DNA of 64,000 nt, taken from the NCBI RefSeq assembly GCF_900115225.1, contig NZ_FOVR01000005.1, forward strand, positions 1 to 64,000, written 5' to 3'. The notes beneath the pieces are model-generated. The model was not told where the DNA came from, ran no database searches, and worked only from the letters and a program-made list of their open reading frames with translations. Shown here in pieces: positions 52,004 through 64,000 of the stretch. Source of the stretch: Cohaesibacter marisflavi (GTDB lineage Bacteria; Pseudomonadota; Alphaproteobacteria; Rhizobiales; Cohaesibacteraceae). How positions within the stretch are numbered: the first letter of the stretch is position 1; each line of letters begins with the position of its first letter. A program made the position numbers and the translations under genes.

Positions 52004-52019
52004 TGTTTCACGTGAATCG
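52004..52019. promoter_or_regulatory. parS-like ParB binding site
   Basis: TGTTTCACGTGAATCG matches the parS consensus TGTTTCACGTGAAACA at 14 of 16 positions and keeps the CACGTG core. It lies 25 bases after holA and 1.7 kb from parB. Confidence 0.75.
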
Positions 52020-52155
52020 TTTTTTGAATCAGTAAGTTGCTTTTACCGATCTCTCATTTTGTGAAAACAAATAGAGATAGATCCCTCTGTACTCTCCTGA
52101 TCAGTATTTCAATGAATCACTAAGCCACAGCCAAGCCAGCACCCCAAGTCAAACT

Positions 52156-52171
52156 CGTTTCACGTGAATCA
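52156..52171. promoter_or_regulatory. parS-like ParB binding site
   Basis: CGTTTCACGTGAATCA matches the parS consensus at 14 of 16 positions, 152 bases from the preceding site. Its reverse complement has the same GATTCACGTGAAAC core as the sites near mnmG. Confidence 0.75.
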
Positions 52172-52362
52172 ACCCGATTGGTCCATGCGCCCTCTAGGTT
52201 CTAAACACGCGCCGAGAAAATAGCGCGAAGAACTCTCTCCACTGCCTTTTCACTGCCCGAGATTGACTTTAATTTTTAATCATTTGAACCTATTGCGACG
52301 AACAAAAGCATAAAGCCGATCGGGTAAGATTTGCAATACGACCCCAACGTCTGGAAAACATA

Positions 52363-53604
52363 ATGACACTCAACAGAATCCGGAAGAATGGGTCCCATGC
52401 AGCCTATTTTGCCATGATTACCGTCTTTTTGGATGCCTTCGGAATCGCCTTTATTTCACCAGTCCTACCGGATCTCCTGGAAGAAATAACAGGAAGCAAC
52501 TTGGGCAACGCAGCAATCTATGGCGGCTACTTGACTTTCATCTATGCTTTCATGCAATTCATTGTTTCGCCCATTTTGGGAAATCTCTCCGATAGCTTCG
52601 GCCGCAGACCAATCCTTGTTGTTTCCCTTGGCGCATTGGGCATTGATTATCTGATAATGGGTTTTGCCAATTCCCTTTGGCTGCTGTTTTTTGGCCGCTT
52701 TATTGCCGGGATTTTTGGCGCAACCCACGCCACGGCTTCTGCCTTCATTTCAGATATCTCGAACGGAAAGCAGCGCACACGCAATTTCGGCCTGTTGGGT
52801 GCCAGCTTTGGTGCCGGATTTGTTGCTGGCCCCTTGATTGGTGGCATGCTTACAGACTATGGCGTACGCGTGCCCTTTTTTGCAGCTTTCTTCTTGATAT
52901 TACTGAATTTTATCTACGGACTATTCATATTTCCCGAAAGCCTGCCCAAGGAGAAAAGGCGGAAATTTACGCTGACCGGCGTCAATCCCTTCAAGGGACT
53001 TGCCGAATGCACGCGCTTTCCATCCATAATGCCCCTGTTTCTGGCGCTCTTTCTCTTTCTCATCGCGGACCATGTTTATGTGTCTGTGTGGCCTTATTAT
53101 ACGCGCGAGGCCTTCGAATGGAGCAGCCGCCAGGTCGGACTAACCTTGGCCATCTTTGGCTTTTTTCATGCCCTTACACAGGCTTTTCTAGTCGGCGTTC
53201 TTCTCAAAAAACATGATGAATTGACCATCGCCTTGATTGGTATTGTCAGCAGCGCGGCAATCATGGCGACAATGCTCTTCATCACTCAGGGATGGGTCAT
53301 CTATGCCTTCTTGCCTTTCACCGCGCTTGGTGGATTGGCGACACCCGGACTGCAATCTCTCATGACCCAGAGAGTGCCGGCAACCCATCAGGGACAATTG
53401 CAAGGTGGAATTGGCAGCCTCACCAGTCTCACGACCGTTCTGAGCCCACTGATCATGACCCGCACCTTTTATTTCTTCACTCAGGACCATGCTGCCTACT
53501 ATCACCCCGCAGGCGTATTCGGCCTTTCTGCCTTCGTATGTCTGTTGGCAATAATCCCTCTGTCCTGTTTTACCAAACGCCATCGACGCAAAAACCAGCG
53601 TTAA
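52363..53604 (+). CDS. MFS transporter, TetA/TCR drug-efflux type
   Basis: A 413-residue inner-membrane carrier with 12 predicted helices. The N-terminal helix MITVFLDAFGIAFISPVLPDLL and the loop 2-3 signature GNLSDSFGRRPIL (GxxxDxxGRR) are clear, and SAFISDISNGKQRTRNFGLLGASFGAGFVAGPLIGG resembles TetA(TCR/Tet)-like exporters. Family members export tetracycline or other amphiphiles by proton antiport; the substrate here is unknown. It has a Lys/Arg-rich C-terminus. It stands alone after the parS pair and ends at a bidirectional terminator with parB. No regulator is adjacent. Confidence 0.9.
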   Translation: MTLNRIRKNGSHAAYFAMITVFLDAFGIAFISPVLPDLLEEITGSNLGNAAIYGGYLTFIYAFMQFIVSPILGNLSDSFGRRPILVVSLGALGIDYLIMGFANSLWLLFFGRFIAGIFGATHATASAFISDISNGKQRTRNFGLLGASFGAGFVAGPLIGGMLTDYGVRVPFFAAFFLILLNFIYGLFIFPESLPKEKRRKFTLTGVNPFKGLAECTRFPSIMPLFLALFLFLIADHVYVSVWPYYTREAFEWSSRQVGLTLAIFGFFHALTQAFLVGVLLKKHDELTIALIGIVSSAAIMATMLFITQGWVIYAFLPFTALGGLATPGLQSLMTQRVPATHQGQLQGGIGSLTSLTTVLSPLIMTRTFYFFTQDHAAYYHPAGVFGLSAFVCLLAIIPLSCFTKRHRRKNQR

Positions 53605-53652
53605 GTGCCTAATCTTCTGGCCAAAGACCGATATTTCAATAACGTAGGCAAC

Positions 53653-53681
53653 AAAAAAGGGAGCCTTTTTGGCTCCCTTTT
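53653..53681. terminator. bidirectional terminator between MFS gene and parB
   Basis: AAAAGGGAGCC / GGCTCCCTTTT is a perfect 11-bp stem with a five-base T loop and A/T runs outside. It separates the convergent MFS and parB genes. Confidence 0.9.
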
Positions 53682-53707
53682 CTACAAAATCTATCGATAA
53701 ACGCGAC

Positions 53708-54577
53708 TTATTGATTTTCCAAAATCGCGATAATCGCATCGAGCTGCTCAAGAGATTTATACTGAATCTTGAGCTCCCCACCCTTTTTCTTGGGTGCGAT
53801 AAAAACATTCCAGCCGAGGCGATCCGTCAAACGCTTTTCCAAGGCCACCGTATCCGCATCTTTTTCTTTTTTCGGCTTTGGTTCCTTGACCTTTTCCTTT
53901 TCCTGACCAGCCTTTTCAGCATCGCGTACTGTCATACCGTCTTCAACGATACGGCGCGCCAGCTCCTCGGGATTCTCTGCCGTGATCAAGGCGCGAGCAT
54001 GGCCAGCGGTCAGCTCACCCTTTTTGAGATAATCCTTAATGCTTTCAGGAAGCTTCAACAGCCGCAAGGTGTTGGCCACATGAGAGCGGCTCTTGCCAAT
54101 AACGTCAGCGAGTTCAGCCTGCGTATAATCAAACTCGGCGATCAACTGATCATAGCCAAGTGCTTCTTCCAGTGCATTCAGATCCGCACGCTGAACGTTT
54201 TCGATGATCGCGAGTTCAAGCGCTTCTTTGTCATTTACATCATGAATGAGAACAGGAACCTCGTGCAGGCCAGCTGCCTGGGCGGCGCGCCAACGGCGCT
54301 CGCCAGCAATGATCTCGTAGGAATCTTCTTCATCTTTCACCGCACGACAAAGAATAGGGTTCATGATCCCCTTTTCCTTGACCGATCGGGTCAGATCATC
54401 GAGATCTTTTTCAACGAAATCCTGACGTGGGTTCCGCGGGTTAGGCCGTAAAAACTCAATAGGAATACGCCGTTGAGAGCGAGCTCGCTCAATCGCCTGC
54501 GCTTCATTATCCATATCTCCGATCAGAGCCGCCAATCCACGCCCCAAACGTTTGCCTTCAGCTGGTTTTTTTGCCAT
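53708..54577 (-). CDS. parB: chromosome partitioning protein ParB
   Basis: A 289-residue CTPase clamp that loads at parS and spreads along DNA to build the origin segregation complex. Visible are LGRGLAALIGD at the N-terminus, the CTP-binding box with GERRWRAAQAAGL, ELAIIENVQRADLNALEEALGY, the helix-turn-helix region YTQAELADVIGKSRSHVANTLRLLKLP, and the basic linker before the C-terminal dimerisation domain. It is the last gene of rsmG-parA-parB. Seven parS-like sites occur within 5 kb of it. Confidence 0.97.
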   Translation of the reverse strand: MAKKPAEGKRLGRGLAALIGDMDNEAQAIERARSQRRIPIEFLRPNPRNPRQDFVEKDLDDLTRSVKEKGIMNPILCRAVKDEEDSYEIIAGERRWRAAQAAGLHEVPVLIHDVNDKEALELAIIENVQRADLNALEEALGYDQLIAEFDYTQAELADVIGKSRSHVANTLRLLKLPESIKDYLKKGELTAGHARALITAENPEELARRIVEDGMTVRDAEKAGQEKEKVKEPKPKKEKDADTVALEKRLTDRLGWNVFIAPKKKGGELKIQYKSLEQLDAIIAILENQ

Positions 54578-54660
54578 TTTTCCGCATTCCCATCAAACCC
54601 GTATAGCCCCTAAGCAACCGGGCCAGACTTCCCTTTGTCACAGTTATGCTGACCCGACAA

Positions 54661-55491
54661 TCAGGCAGCCTTGTTACGCAATTTCTTCTCGCGCTGGATA
54701 ATCTCCGATGCGAGTTTCAAATAAGCCTGACTGCCCGAGCATTTCAGATCGTAAAGCAAAGCCGGTTTACCATAGGATGGTGCTTCAGAAACGCGAACAT
54801 TGCGCGGAATAATCGTCTCATAGACTTTATCCCCCATATGCTCGCGCACATCTTCAACCACCTGATTGGACAGATTATTCCGGCTGTCATACATGGTCAT
54901 CACGATGCCATGGATAGAAAGTTCAGGGTTCAGTGCACCTTTGACCTGATTCACAGTTTGAATGAGCTGGGTCAAACCTTCAAGCGCGAAGAACTCGCAT
55001 TGCAGTGGAACAAGAATGGAGTGCGCTGCCGCCATCGCATTGATGGTCAAGAGGTTGAGTGACGGCGGACAATCGATCAACACATAAGTGAAACGCTTTT
55101 CTTCTGGGATCTCATCACCCATTTTTCCATGTGTTTCGATGGCCTTGCGCAAACGAAAAGCGCGGTCCTTATCACCCGAAATTTCTTGTTCAAGCCCGAG
55201 AAGATCCATCGTCGACGCTGCAACAGACAGACGCGGCACGGCAGTCGGGATGGCAGCTTCCATCAGCGTTGCTTCATTAAGAAGCAATTCGGCGGTAGAA
55301 ACCTGACGCGCCTGGCGATCGATACCCAATCCGGTACTGGCGTTGCCCTGAGGATCGACATCCACGATGAGAACCGTTTCTCCAATCGCCGCCAAAGCGG
55401 TACCCAAATTGATTGCAGTTGTTGTTTTCCCTACGCCGCCCTTCTGATTAGCAAGAGTCAGAACGCGGGGAGATTCAGGCAGTGAACTCAT
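54661..55491 (-). CDS. parA: chromosome partitioning ATPase ParA
   Basis: A 276-residue Walker-type ATPase that binds nucleoid DNA as an ATP dimer and drives the ParB-parS complex toward the cell pole. The deviant Walker A motif KGGVGKTTTAINLG is near residue 18, Walker A' is VDVDPQGNASTGLG, and Walker B is YVLIDCPPSLNLLTINAM. The C-terminal IPRNVRVSEAPSYGKPALLYD is typical of chromosomal ParA/Soj. GAGG precedes the ATG. It lies 28 bases after rsmG and 83 before parB. Confidence 0.97.
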   Translation of the reverse strand: MSSLPESPRVLTLANQKGGVGKTTTAINLGTALAAIGETVLIVDVDPQGNASTGLGIDRQARQVSTAELLLNEATLMEAAIPTAVPRLSVAASTMDLLGLEQEISGDKDRAFRLRKAIETHGKMGDEIPEEKRFTYVLIDCPPSLNLLTINAMAAAHSILVPLQCEFFALEGLTQLIQTVNQVKGALNPELSIHGIVMTMYDSRNNLSNQVVEDVREHMGDKVYETIIPRNVRVSEAPSYGKPALLYDLKCSGSQAYLKLASEIIQREKKLRNKAA

Positions 55492-55519
55492 AAAGTGGCC
55501 TCACTTCGCATTTGTTTCA

Positions 55520-56167
55520 CTATGCGTTTTTGGGTGATAAGCGGCGCAGAATAACGATCCGCGCTTCGGGATCCGTTCTGCTCACTTGTTGTACCAGATC
55601 TATATTCCAGCTAACACTGGCCTCACGCAATTCTCGATCAAAGTCCCGACCTTTGTGGAAAACACCCACACAAGTTTCACAAATGTGGGGATGAACAAAA
55701 GAACAGAGTTTATCGAGAGAAGCCAGGGCTCGGGCGCTAAAGGCATCCACCGGACCAGACCAGTCTTTTAATACCGATTCGATCCGATCTCCATGAACGA
55801 CGACATTGAGCCCCAACTCGCGGGCAACTGTCTTGAGAAATGCACCCTTCCGGCCATTGCTTTCGATCATGTGAACCGAGTAATCCTCACCCGTATCAGC
55901 CAGCAGAATGGCAGTGACCAGCCCCGGAAATCCGGCACCAGACCCAAGATCAATCCAATGGCGCGCTTGAGGATAAGCCGCATAGATCTGCACACTGTCC
56001 GCTATGTGGCGCACCCAAATTTCATCAAGGGTTTTCGGAGCCACAAGATTCTGCGCTGGCTGCCACTTACGCACCAGAGCCTCATAGCGACCTAGCTTTT
56101 CCAGTGATTCACGTGAAACCGGAAGCATTGAATTGATCAACTCAATACCACGTTCCTTAGCGTCCAT
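55520..56167 (-). CDS. rsmG: 16S rRNA (guanine-N7)-methyltransferase RsmG
   Basis: A 215-residue SAM-dependent enzyme (GidB) that methylates G527 of 16S rRNA, the streptomycin-sensitivity position. Seen are WQPAQNLVAPKTLDEIWVRHIADS, the SAM motif WIDLGSGAGFPGLVTAILLAD, and FLKTVARELGLNVVVHGDRIE. The gene lies between mnmG and parA, the classical origin-proximal order. A parS-like 16-mer is embedded in the coding region at 56105-56120. Confidence 0.95.
   Translation of the reverse strand: MDAKERGIELINSMLPVSRESLEKLGRYEALVRKWQPAQNLVAPKTLDEIWVRHIADSVQIYAAYPQARHWIDLGSGAGFPGLVTAILLADTGEDYSVHMIESNGRKGAFLKTVARELGLNVVVHGDRIESVLKDWSGPVDAFSARALASLDKLCSFVHPHICETCVGVFHKGRDFDRELREASVSWNIDLVQQVSRTDPEARIVILRRLSPKNA
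56105..56120. promoter_or_regulatory. parS-like site inside rsmG
   Basis: TGATTCACGTGAAACC matches the parS consensus at 14 of 16 positions and keeps the GATTCACGTGAAAC core of the intergenic sites. It falls in rsmG near its 5' end, where it encodes the Ser-Arg-Glu-Ser stretch around residue 19. Confidence 0.65.
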
Positions 56168-56243
56168 ATGATCTTTCCATTTCCTTCAAACCGTCTGTAG
56201 GAGCGCAGCACCCTGCCCGCCAGAAAGCCGGTATCTATCAACA

Positions 56244-58088
56244 TTACATACGCTTGCTATGTGCCAGAACAAGCGTCAAAGCCGCCGGCGTCATTCCATC
56301 GATACGCGAGGCCTGTCCAAGGGTCTGCGGACGGACATGCTTGAGCTTCTGCTTTAATTCGTTGGACAGTCCGTTGATATCTTCAAAGACAAGACTGGAT
56401 GGAATCACCAAGGCCTCATCCTTCTTGAAGGTCTCGATATCATCAGTCTGCTTTTTCATATAGACCTGATAGAGCGCTTCGATCTCAAGCTGCTTGCGAA
56501 CCTTGGGTGAAAAATTCCCAAATTCGGGCCACACTTCGGTCAATCGATCAAGGGTCAAATCCGGATAAGCCAGAAGCTCATAAGCTGTGCGGCGCTGACC
56601 ATCCTTGTTGATTTTAAGACCAACCCGTTCCGCTTCATTTGGCGTCAGACTCTTTTCCTGAGCAAGAGCTGTAATGGCCTGAAGTTCTTCTTTCTTCTGT
56701 CCGAAAGCCTTACGCCGTTCTTCGCCGATCAGACCCCACCCATCAGCCAGATCCGTCAGGCGCTGATCGGCATTGTCCGCACGCAGAGAAAGACGATATT
56801 CCGCCCGCGAGGTAAACATCCGATAGGGTTCCATCACACCGCGTGTAATCAGGTCATCGATCATCACGCCGATATAGGCATCGGATCGTCCGAGAACCAC
56901 ACCATCCTGATCACCACATTGACGCGCCGCATTCATGCCCGCAATCAAACCTTGAGCCCCGGCCTCTTCATAGCCGGTCGTCCCATTGATCTGACCGGCC
57001 AGATACAAACCGGACACGCGCTTGGTTTCAAGCGTCGCCTTCAGCTCGGTCGGATCGATATAGTCATATTCAATCGCGTAACCATATTGCTTGATCTCGA
57101 CATTCTCGAGACCCGGGATAGACCGGATATAGGCATCCTGCACATCTTCCGGTAACGAGGTTGAAATACCATTGGGATAGATCGTGTCAAAGTCGAGCCC
57201 TTCAGGTTCAAGAAACACCTGATGCCCATCCCGATCACCAAAGCGATTGATTTTATCTTCGATAGACGGACAGTAGCGCGGCCCTACCCCTTCGATTTTA
57301 CCCGAATACATCGCAGACTTATGGATATTCTCACGAATGATCTGGTGTGTCTTAGGAACGGTACGGGTCACATGACAATCAATCTGCGGTGTCGCGATAG
57401 CATTCGTCAGGTAGGAAAAAGCCACAGGCTCATCATCCCCTGGCTGTGTACCAAGAGAAGAATAGTCAATCGTGGCACCATTCAGCCGCGCCGGAGTTCC
57501 TGTCTTCAAACGCCCTAATCGAAAATTCTCCGACATCAAACGCAAAGACAGATCATTGGCCGCTGGATCGCCCATGCGCCCAGCCGAGAAACTTTTTTGC
57601 CCGATATGAATAAGCCCACGCAGGAAAGTCCCTGTCGTCAAAACGACCGCACCGCAGGCAATTTCCTTGCCACCAGACAAAGTCACGCTGGTGACGCGCC
57701 CTTCATCAATGGACATATCGGCGACTTCCCCATCGACAATAATAAGATTGGGAATGTCAGCCAGAAGCGCCTGCACGGCATCTCGATAGAGCTTACGATC
57801 TTCCTGCGCGCGCGGTCCCTGAACCGCAGGCCCCTTGCGCCGATTAAGCAGACGAAACTGGATCCCGCCCCTATCCGCAGCAAGCCCCATGACACCGCCC
57901 AGAGCATCGATCTCACGAACGAGGTGACCTTTACCCAATCCACCGATTGCCGGATTGCAAGACATCACACCGATTGTCTGTCGACTATGAGTCACCAACG
58001 CAACCGTCGCACCAACACGCGCAGCGGCTGCTGCAGCTTCAGCACCTGCATGACCACCACCAACAACCACTACATCAACTCGGTTCAT
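56244..58088 (-). CDS. mnmG: tRNA uridine-5-carboxymethylaminomethyl modification enzyme MnmG
   Basis: A 614-residue FAD protein (GidA) that works with MnmE to build cmnm5U34 in tRNAs decoding NNA/NNG codons. The N-terminal FAD motif [21 protein letters not shown] is followed by [24 protein letters not shown], the insertion domain with a conserved Cys in RYCPSIEDK, and a C-terminal helical domain that contacts MnmE ([16 protein letters not shown]). Length is close to the norm. GAGG lies nine bases before the ATG. The 309-base upstream gap holds four parS-like sites. Confidence 0.97.
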
Positions 58089-58247
58089 CCATATCCTCTT
58101 ATGTCTTTAGTCAACATCGAACAGAGCATTGTCATCGGTACGAGCCCGAACGCCAAGAAGACCTTCCCTAAAGCGTTAACTCGCAGACCCCAATTCTTCA
58201 GAACTTGTTTACATCCCTCATGATAGCCTGAATCGGGTCGAAATTCA

Positions 58248-58263
58248 GGATTCACGTGAAACA
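58248..58263. promoter_or_regulatory. parS-like site 1 of mnmG-mnmE cluster
   Basis: GGATTCACGTGAAACA, 14 of 16 to the parS consensus. The right half is the perfect GTGAAACA; the left half carries the GATTC variant. Confidence 0.78.
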
Positions 58264-58295
58264 CGTCAAACCCGCAGATTTTCGCTATATAGCAC

Positions 58296-58311
58296 GGATT
58301 CACGTGAAACT
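58296..58311. promoter_or_regulatory. parS-like site 2 of mnmG-mnmE cluster
   Basis: GGATTCACGTGAAACT, 48 bases from site 1, same orientation of the asymmetric core GATTCACGTGAAAC. Confidence 0.75.
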
Positions 58312-58334
58312 ATTGGGACAAATTCCTCGTTTGA

Positions 58335-58350
58335 TGATTCACGTGAAACA
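58335..58350. promoter_or_regulatory. parS-like site 3 of mnmG-mnmE cluster
   Basis: TGATTCACGTGAAACA, one mismatch from the consensus, 39 bases from site 2, same orientation. Confidence 0.82.
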
Positions 58351-58376
58351 GAGTCAATCCTGAATTTAAAAAACTA

Positions 58377-58392
58377 TGTTTCACGTGAAACG
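58377..58392. promoter_or_regulatory. parS site 4 of mnmG-mnmE cluster (symmetric)
   Basis: TGTTTCACGTGAAACG, one mismatch from the consensus and the only copy with the fully palindromic GTTTCACGTGAAAC core. It lies five bases beyond the mnmE stop codon. Confidence 0.85.
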
Positions 58393-61591: not shown

Positions 61592-62044
61592 TCAGTAAAA
61601 GGGTTTAACAACAGCCAGAATGACGATAGCCACCATCAACAGCGTGGGAACTTCGTTGAAATAACGATAGTAGACATGGTCTTTGCGATTTTCATCAGCA
61701 GCAAAGACACGCACATAGCGTGCACACACCATATGGTAAGCGGTCATCAGGCTTACAAGAAGAAACTTGATATGAAGCCAAATGGCATCAGCAGTCCAAA
61801 TGCCATGACCAAAGGCCAGCCACAAACCGAAAATCCAAGATGCAATCAGAGAAGGGTTCATGATGCCCTTCAGCAATTTTCGTTCCATGACCTTGAATAT
61901 TTCAGATTTCTCAGACCCGACCTCAGACATTGCATGATAGACAAACAATCGCGGCAAATAGAAAATCCCTGCCATCCATGTGATGACAGAGATGATGTGC
62001 AGGGCCTTTGTCCACTCATAGGGAAGAAATTCCAGAAAATCCAT
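61592..62044 (-). CDS. hemJ: protoporphyrinogen IX oxidase HemJ
   Basis: A 150-residue inner-membrane protein of the UPF0093/HemJ family, which oxidises protoporphyrinogen IX to protoporphyrin IX in bacteria that lack HemG and HemY-type oxidases. Four hydrophobic helices are visible; conserved residues include the His in WTKALHIISVITWMAGIFYLPRLFVYH and a Lys-rich segment FKVMERKLLKGIMNPS. GAGG precedes ATG 62044. It lies between hemE and rho, a linkage shared by many alphaproteobacteria. Confidence 0.92.
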   Translation of the reverse strand: MDFLEFLPYEWTKALHIISVITWMAGIFYLPRLFVYHAMSEVGSEKSEIFKVMERKLLKGIMNPSLIASWIFGLWLAFGHGIWTADAIWLHIKFLLVSLMTAYHMVCARYVRVFAADENRKDHVYYRYFNEVPTLLMVAIVILAVVKPFY

Positions 62045-62101
62045 TTCAGTCCTCAATTCACTTGAACAAAAGCCCGGTCATTTGCTCGTTCAATATCAAG
62101 C

Positions 62102-63133
62102 TTAGCCCCTATAGGAACGCACCCGCTGAATCAGTCGATGAACCAGATCGATATTGCCTTGCGGGGAAATACCATGACCCAGATTGAAAATAAAAGGTCC
62201 GTTGCTCCAAGACGCCATGATCCGGTCAATGGATTCATCCAGATGTCGTTCATCAGACATCAACAAGGTCGGATCCAGATTACCCTGCAAAGCCACTTTC
62301 GGCTGCAAGACATCCCGCGCCCAGTCCAGTGGTACGGTCCAGTCCAACCCGATGGCATTTACGCCTGTGGCCTCAACAAAATCAACGAGCCGCACACCCG
62401 CCCCTTTTGGAAAGCCGATAATCTTCGCGCCCGGAATTTGAGCGCGGACACCCGCCACAATTCTGGCGATGGGATCACGGGAAGCCGAAAGATAGAGCGC
62501 ATCATCCAGCACGCCCGCCCAGCTATCAAAAATCTGCACCGCGTCAGCGCCTGATTGCAGCTGTTTGACCAGATACAGGATGGATGCTTCAACCAGCACA
62601 TCGATCAAGGCATGAAAAGCTTCGGGATACTTGCGAGCGAACAAACGGGCAGGAGCCTGATCCGGTGTGCCATGGCCTGCGATCATATAGGTGGCAACGG
62701 TCCAGGGAGCACCACAAAAACCAAGAAAGGTGGTTTCCCCTGGTAGCCCTTCTCGAATCTTTCCAATTGCTTCAAAAACCGGATTTAGATTCTCCAGAAC
62801 GATCGAAGGGTCGAGATCCTTGATTTCTTCAGGAGAGATCGGATCAAGCTGCGGACCTTCCCCTTGAACAAACCTTACCGAACGCCCAAGTGCATCGGGA
62901 ATTACGAGAATATCGGAAAACAGAATGGCTGCATCAAATCCAAATCGACGGATGGGCTGAAGGGTTACTTCGCAAGCCAAATCAGGATTGTAGCAAAGGG
63001 AGAGAAAACTCCCTGCCTCTGCTCTGGTAGCACGATATTCAGCAAGATATCTTCCCGCTTGCCTCATCAACCAGATAGGAGGAACTTTCTCAGTCTGGCC
63101 ATTGAGCACGTTCATCAAGCGTCGATTGTTCAC
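62102..63133 (-). CDS. hemE: uroporphyrinogen decarboxylase
   Basis: A 343-residue cytosolic enzyme that removes four carboxyl groups from uroporphyrinogen III to give coproporphyrinogen III. The signature PPIWLMRQAGRYLAEYRATR is near residue 18, and CYNPDLACEVTLQPIRRFGFDAAILFSDILVIPDALG follows; GFCGAPWTVATYMI and IFDSWAG are also conserved. The start is probably GTG at 63133 with GGGGAG ten bases upstream; an ATG six codons later has no such site. hemE borders the replication origin in Caulobacter and rhizobia, as it seems to here. Confidence 0.96.
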   Translation of the reverse strand: MNNRRLMNVLNGQTEKVPPIWLMRQAGRYLAEYRATRAEAGSFLSLCYNPDLACEVTLQPIRRFGFDAAILFSDILVIPDALGRSVRFVQGEGPQLDPISPEEIKDLDPSIVLENLNPVFEAIGKIREGLPGETTFLGFCGAPWTVATYMIAGHGTPDQAPARLFARKYPEAFHALIDVLVEASILYLVKQLQSGADAVQIFDSWAGVLDDALYLSASRDPIARIVAGVRAQIPGAKIIGFPKGAGVRLVDFVEATGVNAIGLDWTVPLDWARDVLQPKVALQGNLDPTLLMSDERHLDESIDRIMASWSNGPFIFNLGHGISPQGNIDLVHRLIQRVRSYRG

Positions 63134-63436
63134 GAATTTTGTCTCCCCGTTTGCAGTCCGAATTGAGCACGATTCCCAACAAACTTCCTAATAAAATATT
63201 TAAGTTTTAGAATCTGTTTCTTCTTTTAGACCGTGGATTGTGGGAGTTATTTTTGGCCCACACATTGCCCACAATGACTCTTGAACAACTGTGATTCAAC
63301 AGTCCTTACCTTCTAGTAACTTTTAGGGACCAATGGGGACAAGTCTTGTCTGAGGCAGAATTCTGCGGAGTCTTCTGTGGTCAAATCTGGGGGCTTTATG
63401 GAGACAGAAATTGAGCAAAGTTTAACAAAGTGTGTA

Positions 63437-63452
63437 TTAACTGTTTGTTAAC
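63437..63452. promoter_or_regulatory. CtrA binding box 1
   Basis: TTAA-CTGTTTG-TTAAC is an exact match to the TTAA-N7-TTAAC CtrA consensus. Confidence 0.72.
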
Positions 63453-63504
63453 CTCAGTAAACAGAGTGTTAATAAAACAGGCGTTGCTCAACTCAGCTTG
63501 GGGA

Positions 63505-63520
63505 TTAATAAATGGTTAAC
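63505..63520. promoter_or_regulatory. CtrA binding box 2
   Basis: TTAA-TAAATGG-TTAAC is a second exact TTAA-N7-TTAAC match, 68 bases from the first and in the same orientation. Confidence 0.72.
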
Positions 63521-63770
63521 GGGCATGAAAAGCCAAGCTCGGGAAAAACGGCTTGATTATCCCCTGTTGCCCACACCCCCTGTTGAAGAATCGATTGTTG
63601 GAGCCGGTCTTAACCCTCTATTAAGACAGTCTCATGACGGAAATTGCTGTTTTCCGGCCTTTTCAGCCTGTGTAAATCGTGACAGAGGGGAAAGATCCAC
63701 AACAGCCGTTTTGTTTGACGCCTGCTTGCTCTAAAACTCGGATCATCTTCTCAACGGTTGGACCTTTTTC

Positions 63771-64000
63771 ATGATTCCATTGATTCTAGCTTCCAAAAGT
63801 CAGGCTCGGGCACAGCTCTTGTCCAATGCCGGCCTTTCATTTGAGACATCGGTTGCGCAAATTGATGAGCGCGCCGCCGAACAGCCTCTATTGGCAGCAG
63901 GGGCCTCTCCTGCCGATATCGCAACTCTGCTTGCTCAGGTGAAAGCAACCGAAGTGTCCGTTCGCAATCCTGGTGCGCTGGTCATCGGTGGGGATCAGAC
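63771..64000 (+). CDS. Maf family nucleotide pyrophosphatase (partial, cut by right edge)
   Basis: The first 76 codons of a Maf/YhdE-like protein. The start MIPLILASKSQARAQLLSNAG is the family's substrate-binding N-terminus (SxSPRR-like, here SKSQAR), and the fragment ends at VIGGDQT, the conserved (A/G)xDQ motif with the catalytic Asp. Members hydrolyse modified or canonical nucleoside triphosphates. The gene continues beyond the window; aroE and coaE would be the expected next genes in this group. It is divergent from hemE. Confidence 0.88.
   Translation, partial: MIPLILASKSQARAQLLSNAGLSFETSVAQIDERAAEQPLLAAGASPADIATLLAQVKATEVSVRNPGALVIGGDQ

Follow-up and report, generated by a model that had tools for sequence, protein, structure and literature searches.

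A putative chromosome origin between hemE and maf in Cohaesibacter with candidate CtrA boxes at fixed spacing

The gap between hemE and maf in Cohaesibacter marisflavi (positions 63134–63770 of the first 64,000 nucleotides of contig NZ_FOVR01000005.1, hereafter the window) is very probably the chromosome origin of this Cohaesibacter. It holds the minimum of the GC skew of its contig and three exact TTAA-N7-TTAA boxes, the consensus form of sites for the response regulator CtrA, two of which overlap DnaA-like sites; one of these boxes is conserved at fixed spacing throughout the genus, and the genome encodes both CtrA and DnaA. These features probably reflect a Caulobacter-like switch in which CtrA and DnaA would exclude each other within a rigidly phased origin. 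Our family set comprises 20 genomes, 18 of Cohaesibacter and those of two sister genera, and distances given with a plus sign are counted from an anchor word, GTGGAT, at 63233.

Strand skew, CtrA boxes and fixed spacing at the hemE–maf gap

The window is the start of a 284,617-bp contig in an assembly of 5,339,722 bases and 41 contigs. The first-pass annotation of this DNA had placed the origin in the hemE–maf gap and had named a skew minimum elsewhere as a result that would speak against it; the cumulative GC skew, taken over the whole contig, is lowest at 63313, within the gap. A very close relative with a completely sequenced chromosome (G017, whose HemE is 98% identical to that of the window) also switches skew near this place, as judged from 20 stretches of 20 kb that add up to 400 kb of its 5.39 Mb. 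There the skew was negative in all ten samples on the hemE side and positive on average on the maf side, where two of ten samples were slightly negative, and a second switch was found opposite on the chromosome. The replichores are unequal in skew strength: in G017 the hemE side has about −0.068 and the maf side +0.017, and our own contig trends alike. The best relatives of HemE in a protein search were Cohaesibacter. The A+T-rich core described around the boxes is real, with a G+C content of 0.36 at 63410–63530 and 0.43 in the gap, compared with 0.53 in the window. The dnaA gene (Pfam PF08299) lies ∼151 kb from the gap.

The motif TTAA-N7-TTAAC occurs only twice in the 64 kb, at 63437–63452 and 63505–63520, exactly where the first-pass annotation had read it, 68 bp apart (0.19 expected); two copies are reached in 4 of 100 whole-window shuffles, and the real pair sits within 1% of the window. 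All three copies of the shorter TTAA-N7-TTAA lie in the gap (0.37 expected in 64 kb; three are reached in 2 of 100 shuffles). Here the first-pass annotation was incomplete, missing the box at 63610 as well as a degenerate site, site 2, which is the conserved partner of box 1 at a distance of 21 bp, or two helical turns. Loss of both boxes in close relatives had been named as a second adverse result. Box 1 (63437) is present in 18/18 Cohaesibacter genomes, exact in 14 and in the form TTTA-N7-TTAA in 4, and the box at 63505 is clade-specific, exact in nine and absent in nine. Site 2 is an exact TTAA-N7-TTAAC in three of the 18 and also in C. celericrescens L013, and its left half is TAAA in the other 15, including the window species. 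When the number of bases between the two half-sites was varied from 0 to 15 near the anchor of the 18 genomes, a spacer of 7 gave 34 sites, compared with 6 for 11, 3 for 6, 1 for 8 and none for the other twelve values. Two family gaps, and only these of 24 rows, have an extra exact TTAA-N7-TTAAC 133 bp hemE-ward of box 1. Elsewhere in the genome further close pairs of the motif, at C15:155958-155997, C19:238729-238847 and C26:183701-183728, are possible CtrA targets.

A DnaA-like site lies over box 1 in every Cohaesibacter genome. The word TGTG.ATT occurs there in 18/18, with one difference from TTATNCACA in 14 and two in 4, and the whole nonamer is TAAT[AG]CACA or AAAT[AG]CACA in 18/18; the two sister genera are without it. 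Thus, as judged from sequence, the overlap of a CtrA box with a DnaA-like site that is typical of the Caulobacter origin is found throughout the genus. Box 3 (63505) lies on a W-box-like word; because TCCCCA is present at that register in 14/18 Cohaesibacter genomes, the clade with this box seems to have placed it on a pre-existing DnaA-like site.

Fourteen of the 18 Cohaesibacter genomes have box 1 at +204 and the other four at +205 (SD 0.42); in the two sister genera the distance from the anchor is 209 and 210. Other landmarks keep their place in 18/18: GGGGA at +102/103, [TG]GTTAA at +234/235, GGGGA or GTTGAT at +267/268 and TATCC or TGTCC at +325/326. The register is thus kept on both sides of box 1, and therefore the box appears to be tied to the origin scaffold and not to a promoter. 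The sequence between landmarks is little constrained. From +45 to +185 (140 bp) the mean ungapped identity is 0.475 and the lowest 0.31 (55 pairs from 11 dereplicated genomes), and mean identities fall to 0.23–0.32 when the sequences are shifted by 1–4 bases. In the same genomes the equally long hemJ–rho gap varies from 172 to 207 bp (SD 8.0), and the variances differ with Levene p 0.0014 (18 genomes) or 0.03 (11 dereplicated). Also more variable than the core (Levene p 0.014) is the stretch between hemE residue 1 and the anchor, at 89–115 bp with an SD of 5.7. Part-turn changes of spacing are detrimental in the Escherichia coli oriC (PMC4285127), and hence phasing of DnaA assembly is the simplest reading of the fixed spacing, with box 1 belonging to the phased set; Cohaesibacter would differ from E. 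coli in that a response-regulator site shares the register. RNA structure was rejected as the cause of the fixed length, since pairs predicted for each strand of a 230-bp interval in 11 genomes showed compensatory change in 0/9 and 0/17 cases and Rfam gave no match up to E=1 in 62000–64000. Bending by IHF was rejected as well, two consensus patterns having given no match in the gap.

Unwinding block, other sites and flanking genes

Beside hemE, the block 63189–63273 is conserved in family alignments of 9 and of 16 gaps and in a scan of the 20 genomes. Its minus strand at 63214–63228 reads TAA AAG AAG AAA CAG, similar to a DnaA-trio by the NAN-triplet pattern used for such elements (PMC8287927), and is followed by a 4-base spacer and then by degenerate DnaA-like boxes. 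All 20 family genomes have 5–6 consecutive NAN triplets here, with the frame picked to maximise the count. The coordinates of these and the other features are collected in Table 1.

Table 1. Features of the hemE–maf gap and its surroundings (window coordinates)
Feature	Position	Strand	Remarks
hemE–maf gap, putative chromosome origin	63134–63770	.	Contig skew minimum; alignments of 9 and of 16 family gaps
A+T-rich candidate unwinding element	63189–63232	−	NAN triplets in 20/20 family genomes
Anchor GTGGATTGTGGGA, degenerate DnaA-like boxes beside trio	63233–63245	−	GTGGAT in 20/20 family genomes
Two CCCACA DnaA-like cores	63257–63273	+	Anchor +24 and +35; TTGCCCACA at 63265–63273
TCCCCA, the Caulobacter W-box consensus (PMC4285127)	63334–63339	−	Anchor +101; GGGGA landmark
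DnaA-like nonamer TAATACACA	63431–63439	−	Three-base overlap with CtrA box 1
CtrA box 1 TTAACTGTTTGTTAAC	63437–63452	+	Anchor +204
CtrA site 2 TAAACAGAGTGTTAAT	63458–63473	+	Degenerate in window; starts 21 bp after box 1
DnaA-like TTATTAACA	63467–63475	−	Over right half of site 2; one mismatch to TTATNCACA; at this register in 6/20 genomes
W-box-like TAATCCCCA	63499–63507	−	Overlaps CtrA box 3
CtrA box 3 TTAATAAATGGTTAAC	63505–63520	+	Second box of the first-pass annotation; clade-specific
Right DnaA-like cluster TTATCCCCTGTTGCCCACA	63557–63575	+	
GAATC, a GANTC site	63588–63592	.	Right edge of phased core; +355/356 in 16/18, +365 in 2
CtrA box 4 TTAACCCTCTATTAA	63610–63624	+	Beyond phased core; clade-specific, exact in 6/18 Cohaesibacter
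hemE, left flank of origin	62102–63133	−	NCBIfam TIGR01464, 390 bits, above cut-off
maf, 5′ part	63771–64000	+	Extends past window end; Pfam PF02545, 50.5 bits, above cut-off
parB (53708–54577) and parA (54661–55491)	53708–55491	−	∼8 kb from gap; parB, TIGR00180 ParB domain above cut-off; parA, ParA_partition below cut-off
Four parS-like sites, clustered between mnmE and mnmG	58248–58392	+	

The first-pass annotation had pointed to nonamers flanking the boxes, and TTGCCCACA is indeed found twice in the gap, at 63265 and 63567. Two copies are reached in 28 of 100 shuffles, and we therefore rejected these repeats as evidence standing alone. The GAATC at 63588 is, as a GANTC site, a candidate target of CcrM-type methylation, and one gene of the genome matches the N6/N4 methyltransferase family PF01555, to which CcrM belongs.

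The neighbourhood had likewise been described as origin-like. In a profile search curated cut-offs were reached by hemE, hemJ, rho, mnmE, mnmG and rsmG; parB was recognised by its domain model, and only parA had its best family under the cut-off. Seven parS-like sites with at most three mismatches to a parS consensus lie in 52004–58392, where 0.30 would be expected. The gene adjoining parB (52363–53604) is probably that of an ordinary efflux transporter, scoring 347 of the 475 bits required for the Tet(A)/Tet(B)/Tet(C) efflux family. Origins linked to hemE have this gene on one side and maf or COG1806 on the other, and the gap shows this layout in its maf form. In C. celericrescens L013 a COG1806-type gene adjoins maf, between it and the origin (L013 4608–5477). 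A match to this COG1806/PpsR-like gene was found in 9/20 family genomes and none in 11/18 Cohaesibacter, including that of the window, and the gene was probably lost clade-wide at the origin edge.

Proposed switch and alternative readings

CtrA is encoded in the genome (NF045991, 428 bits, cut-off 350) and is 82% identical to a query sequence of C. crescentus CtrA. In the switch that we propose, DnaA would bind the anchor and the boxes of the phased scaffold (∼63214–63592) and open the A+T-rich, trio-bearing DNA beside hemE. CtrA, presumably phosphorylated, would bind box 1 and, in the clade of the window species, also the boxes at 63505 and 63610; by covering the overlapping DnaA sites at boxes 1 and 3 it would block DnaA assembly, and its removal would license initiation. 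We infer CtrA binding, its dependence on phosphorylation, the exclusion of DnaA and the effect on replication from the arrangement and conservation of the sites.

This arrangement is similar to that of Cori, the origin of C. crescentus, which also adjoins hemE, is A+T-rich and contains exact TTAA-N7-TTAA boxes as well as the W-box TCCCCA; there too, CtrA boxes cover weak DnaA sites or lie close to them (PMC4468827, PMC4285127, PMC1914354). Cori differs in having five CtrA sites, two G-boxes and an IHF site (PMC4468827, PMC4285127, PMC1914354), whereas in Cohaesibacter one CtrA site is genus-wide, one is mostly degenerate and the others are clade-specific. The window clade also lacks the COG1806 gene that adjoins Cori.

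Several observations weigh against such a switch or soften its support. The exact Caulobacter G-box TGATCCACA is absent from the gap, the best similar word being AGATCCACA at 63693, with a single mismatch and at this register in 3/20 genomes; two consensus patterns for IHF gave no match in the gap, though a weak site could escape them. Shuffled DNA of the same composition reached five NAN triplets in 299 of 3600 cases (8.3%), so that the trio pattern alone is only mildly unusual, and it is therefore the conservation and not the triplet count that matters. A basal unwinding system was defined as at least three NAN triplets near a DnaA box with at most two mismatches; in the window species the box beside the trio differs from TTATCCACA at three bases, and only 4/20 genomes have one within two mismatches. 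Genome-wide, TTAA-N7-TTAAC is not enriched (48 sites compared with 54 for the reversed pattern), and hence the argument lies in the clustering and conservation of the boxes. In the length tests related genomes count as independent, save for the run on 11 dereplicated ones, and the hemJ–rho control was measured by projection from protein matches, so that changes of gene ends enter its variance. Because the distance from hemE to the anchor is itself 99–100 bp in 12/18 genomes, the stability of length may partly be shared ancestry. Gains and losses of boxes were read without a species tree. When the CtrA sites were removed in C. crescentus, the cycle was only mildly perturbed (PMC4468827), and thus CtrA sites need not be the main switch. 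Finally, we found no origin, binding or replication data for Cohaesibacter in the literature searched, which left most subscription papers outside and supports no claim of absence from print.

The strongest competitor, although unlikely, accepts the gap as the origin and assigns the CtrA boxes to transcription, either of hemE or of a CcnA-like small RNA from the origin. At Cori the CtrA boxes reportedly act on both replication and transcription, and CcnA is transcribed there (PMC8959179). A scan of 63000–64000 detected no sigma-70-like promoter and no terminator-like site, other promoter types being outside its reach, and the reading of a sigma-70 promoter was dropped. Against a role in transcription also stand the lack of Rfam matches and of compensatory RNA pairs and a spacing that is frozen toward the DnaA landmarks more than toward hemE. 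That some other regulator with a CtrA-like site binds TTAA-N7-TTAA is improbable: 11 further response regulators of the genome match the CtrA query with E < 1e-18, yet identity to the query drops from 82% for ctrA itself to 39% for the next match, and N7, the CtrA consensus spacer, is the one favoured near the genus origin, with 34 sites against at most 6 for any other.

Chance would require the boxes to be A+T-rich words without function. The coming and going of the 63505 and 63610 boxes among clades and the lack of genome-wide enrichment would suit this view, which we nevertheless regard as very improbable, since box 1 is retained in 18/18 Cohaesibacter and a spacer of 7 exceeds the 15 other spacers in the order-wide set described below (21 against at most 5) and the 12 others in a second set (19 against at most 1). 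Hardly credible, lastly, is an origin elsewhere with the gap as an ordinary regulatory region. Because the assembly is in 41 contigs no skew profile of the whole chromosome can be drawn, which leaves this idea some room; it conflicts with the skew minimum at 63313, the switch in the complete relative, the anchor and trio-like block in 20/20 family genomes, and the par genes and parS-like sites nearby. Thus a phased hemE–maf origin with a CtrA/DnaA exclusion switch remains our preferred reading.

Boxes upstream of hemE across Hyphomicrobiales

A HemE search matched 155 of 160 Hyphomicrobiales genomes, and 1.2 kb upstream of hemE was taken for 60 genomes outside the family; one with 48 bases was dropped, leaving 59 genomes of 42 families. 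An exact TTAA-N7-TTAA was found within 700 bp upstream of hemE in 21/59 genomes and 17/42 families, where a Markov model predicts 0.96 sites over the 60 genomes and other spacers from 0 to 15 give 0–5 sites. From 700 to 1200 bp upstream there were no sites for spacers 5–9. A second set drew 20 genomes from nine families and is biased, because each family was chosen for a box in its first genome; it had a box in 15/20 (19 sites), with at most 1 site for each other spacer from 3 to 15. The first-pass annotation had remarked that CtrA control of the origin is not universal in Hyphomicrobiales; this is right, though boxes upstream of hemE are frequent.

The anchor, searched as GTGGATTACCGGGATT, is matched with at most 4 mismatches in 24/59 of the order genomes compared with 5/295 shuffles. 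In family f42 the box stands at +145, +145, +145 and +144 in 4/4 genomes, and in f41 ∼246–256 from the unwinding block. We suggest tentatively, and as slightly less likely than not, that direct CtrA control of the origin is no peculiarity of Caulobacter but a common and repeatedly re-registered module in Hyphomicrobiales. Each lineage would hold a CtrA box at a nearly base-exact distance of its own, counted from the unwinding block (Cohaesibacter, 204/205; f42, 144/145; f41, ∼246–256), on a rigid scaffold whose spacer sequence changes freely; S. meliloti and Brucella, the members studied best, would be the exceptions.

Some of the order-wide material tells against so broad a module or weakens it. 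The second set includes 5/20 genomes without a box. One f45 genome has the box at +143 and two others near −30; three f35 genomes have it at +53 and a fourth at +77. At 5 or 6 mismatches, matches to the anchor fall within the range of shuffles, and hence the distances in f41 and f35 are less sure than those in f42. Among 76 named loci outside Cohaesibacter, with titles mostly of Rhizobiaceae and Phyllobacteriaceae, 7 have the box compared with 6 for TTAA-N14-TTAA. Skew at hemE, from five 20-kb samples in each of four box genomes of other families, showed a clear switch in G098 alone; G162 changes sign somewhere from +40 to +150 kb, and G134 and G073 have no clear switch. With only one clear switch in four tests, the hemE gap is a putative origin in the other families. 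TTAA-N14-TTAA is itself over-represented, with 5 sites in the 59 genomes and 6 in the 76 loci, whereas other spacers except N7 give 0–3. A record titled Bacillus subtilis SK6B4, whose HemE is 58% identical to the query and falls among alphaproteobacteria, is probably mislabelled.

The chromosome origins of Sinorhizobium meliloti and Brucella abortus, which share the order, also adjoin hemE, and a similar T-rich block was seen upstream of hemE in Rhizobium loci and one Brucella-group locus. They differ in that the S. meliloti origin is reportedly without CtrA motif or CtrA binding (PMC4433202) and CtrA reportedly does not bind that of B. abortus (PMC2877005); the scarcity of boxes in the named loci (7/76) fits these reports. 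In Hyphomonas neptunium, of another order, CtrA binds beside the origin by ChIP-seq (PMC7200025). Putative origins of Rickettsia and Wolbachia similarly lie in gaps linked to hemE; the CtrA boxes there are in silico predictions and number between none and seven (PMC1914354), whereas the Cohaesibacter register is fixed to a base genus-wide. The count of 21/59 does not fit the broad statement that other origins lack CtrA sites (PMC4468827), and by sequence an origin with built-in candidate CtrA sites may be commoner in the order than that review states. The literature searched, with most subscription papers outside it, yielded no paper that counts origin CtrA boxes across the order.

If many of the origin boxes in Hyphomicrobiales do bind CtrA, direct coupling of the CtrA circuit to replication would be far wider than the published statement allows, and the missing CtrA coupling in S. 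meliloti and Brucella would become the thing that needs explaining. In Cohaesibacter, a fixed register combined with a little-constrained spacer sequence would make this a cleanly testable system.
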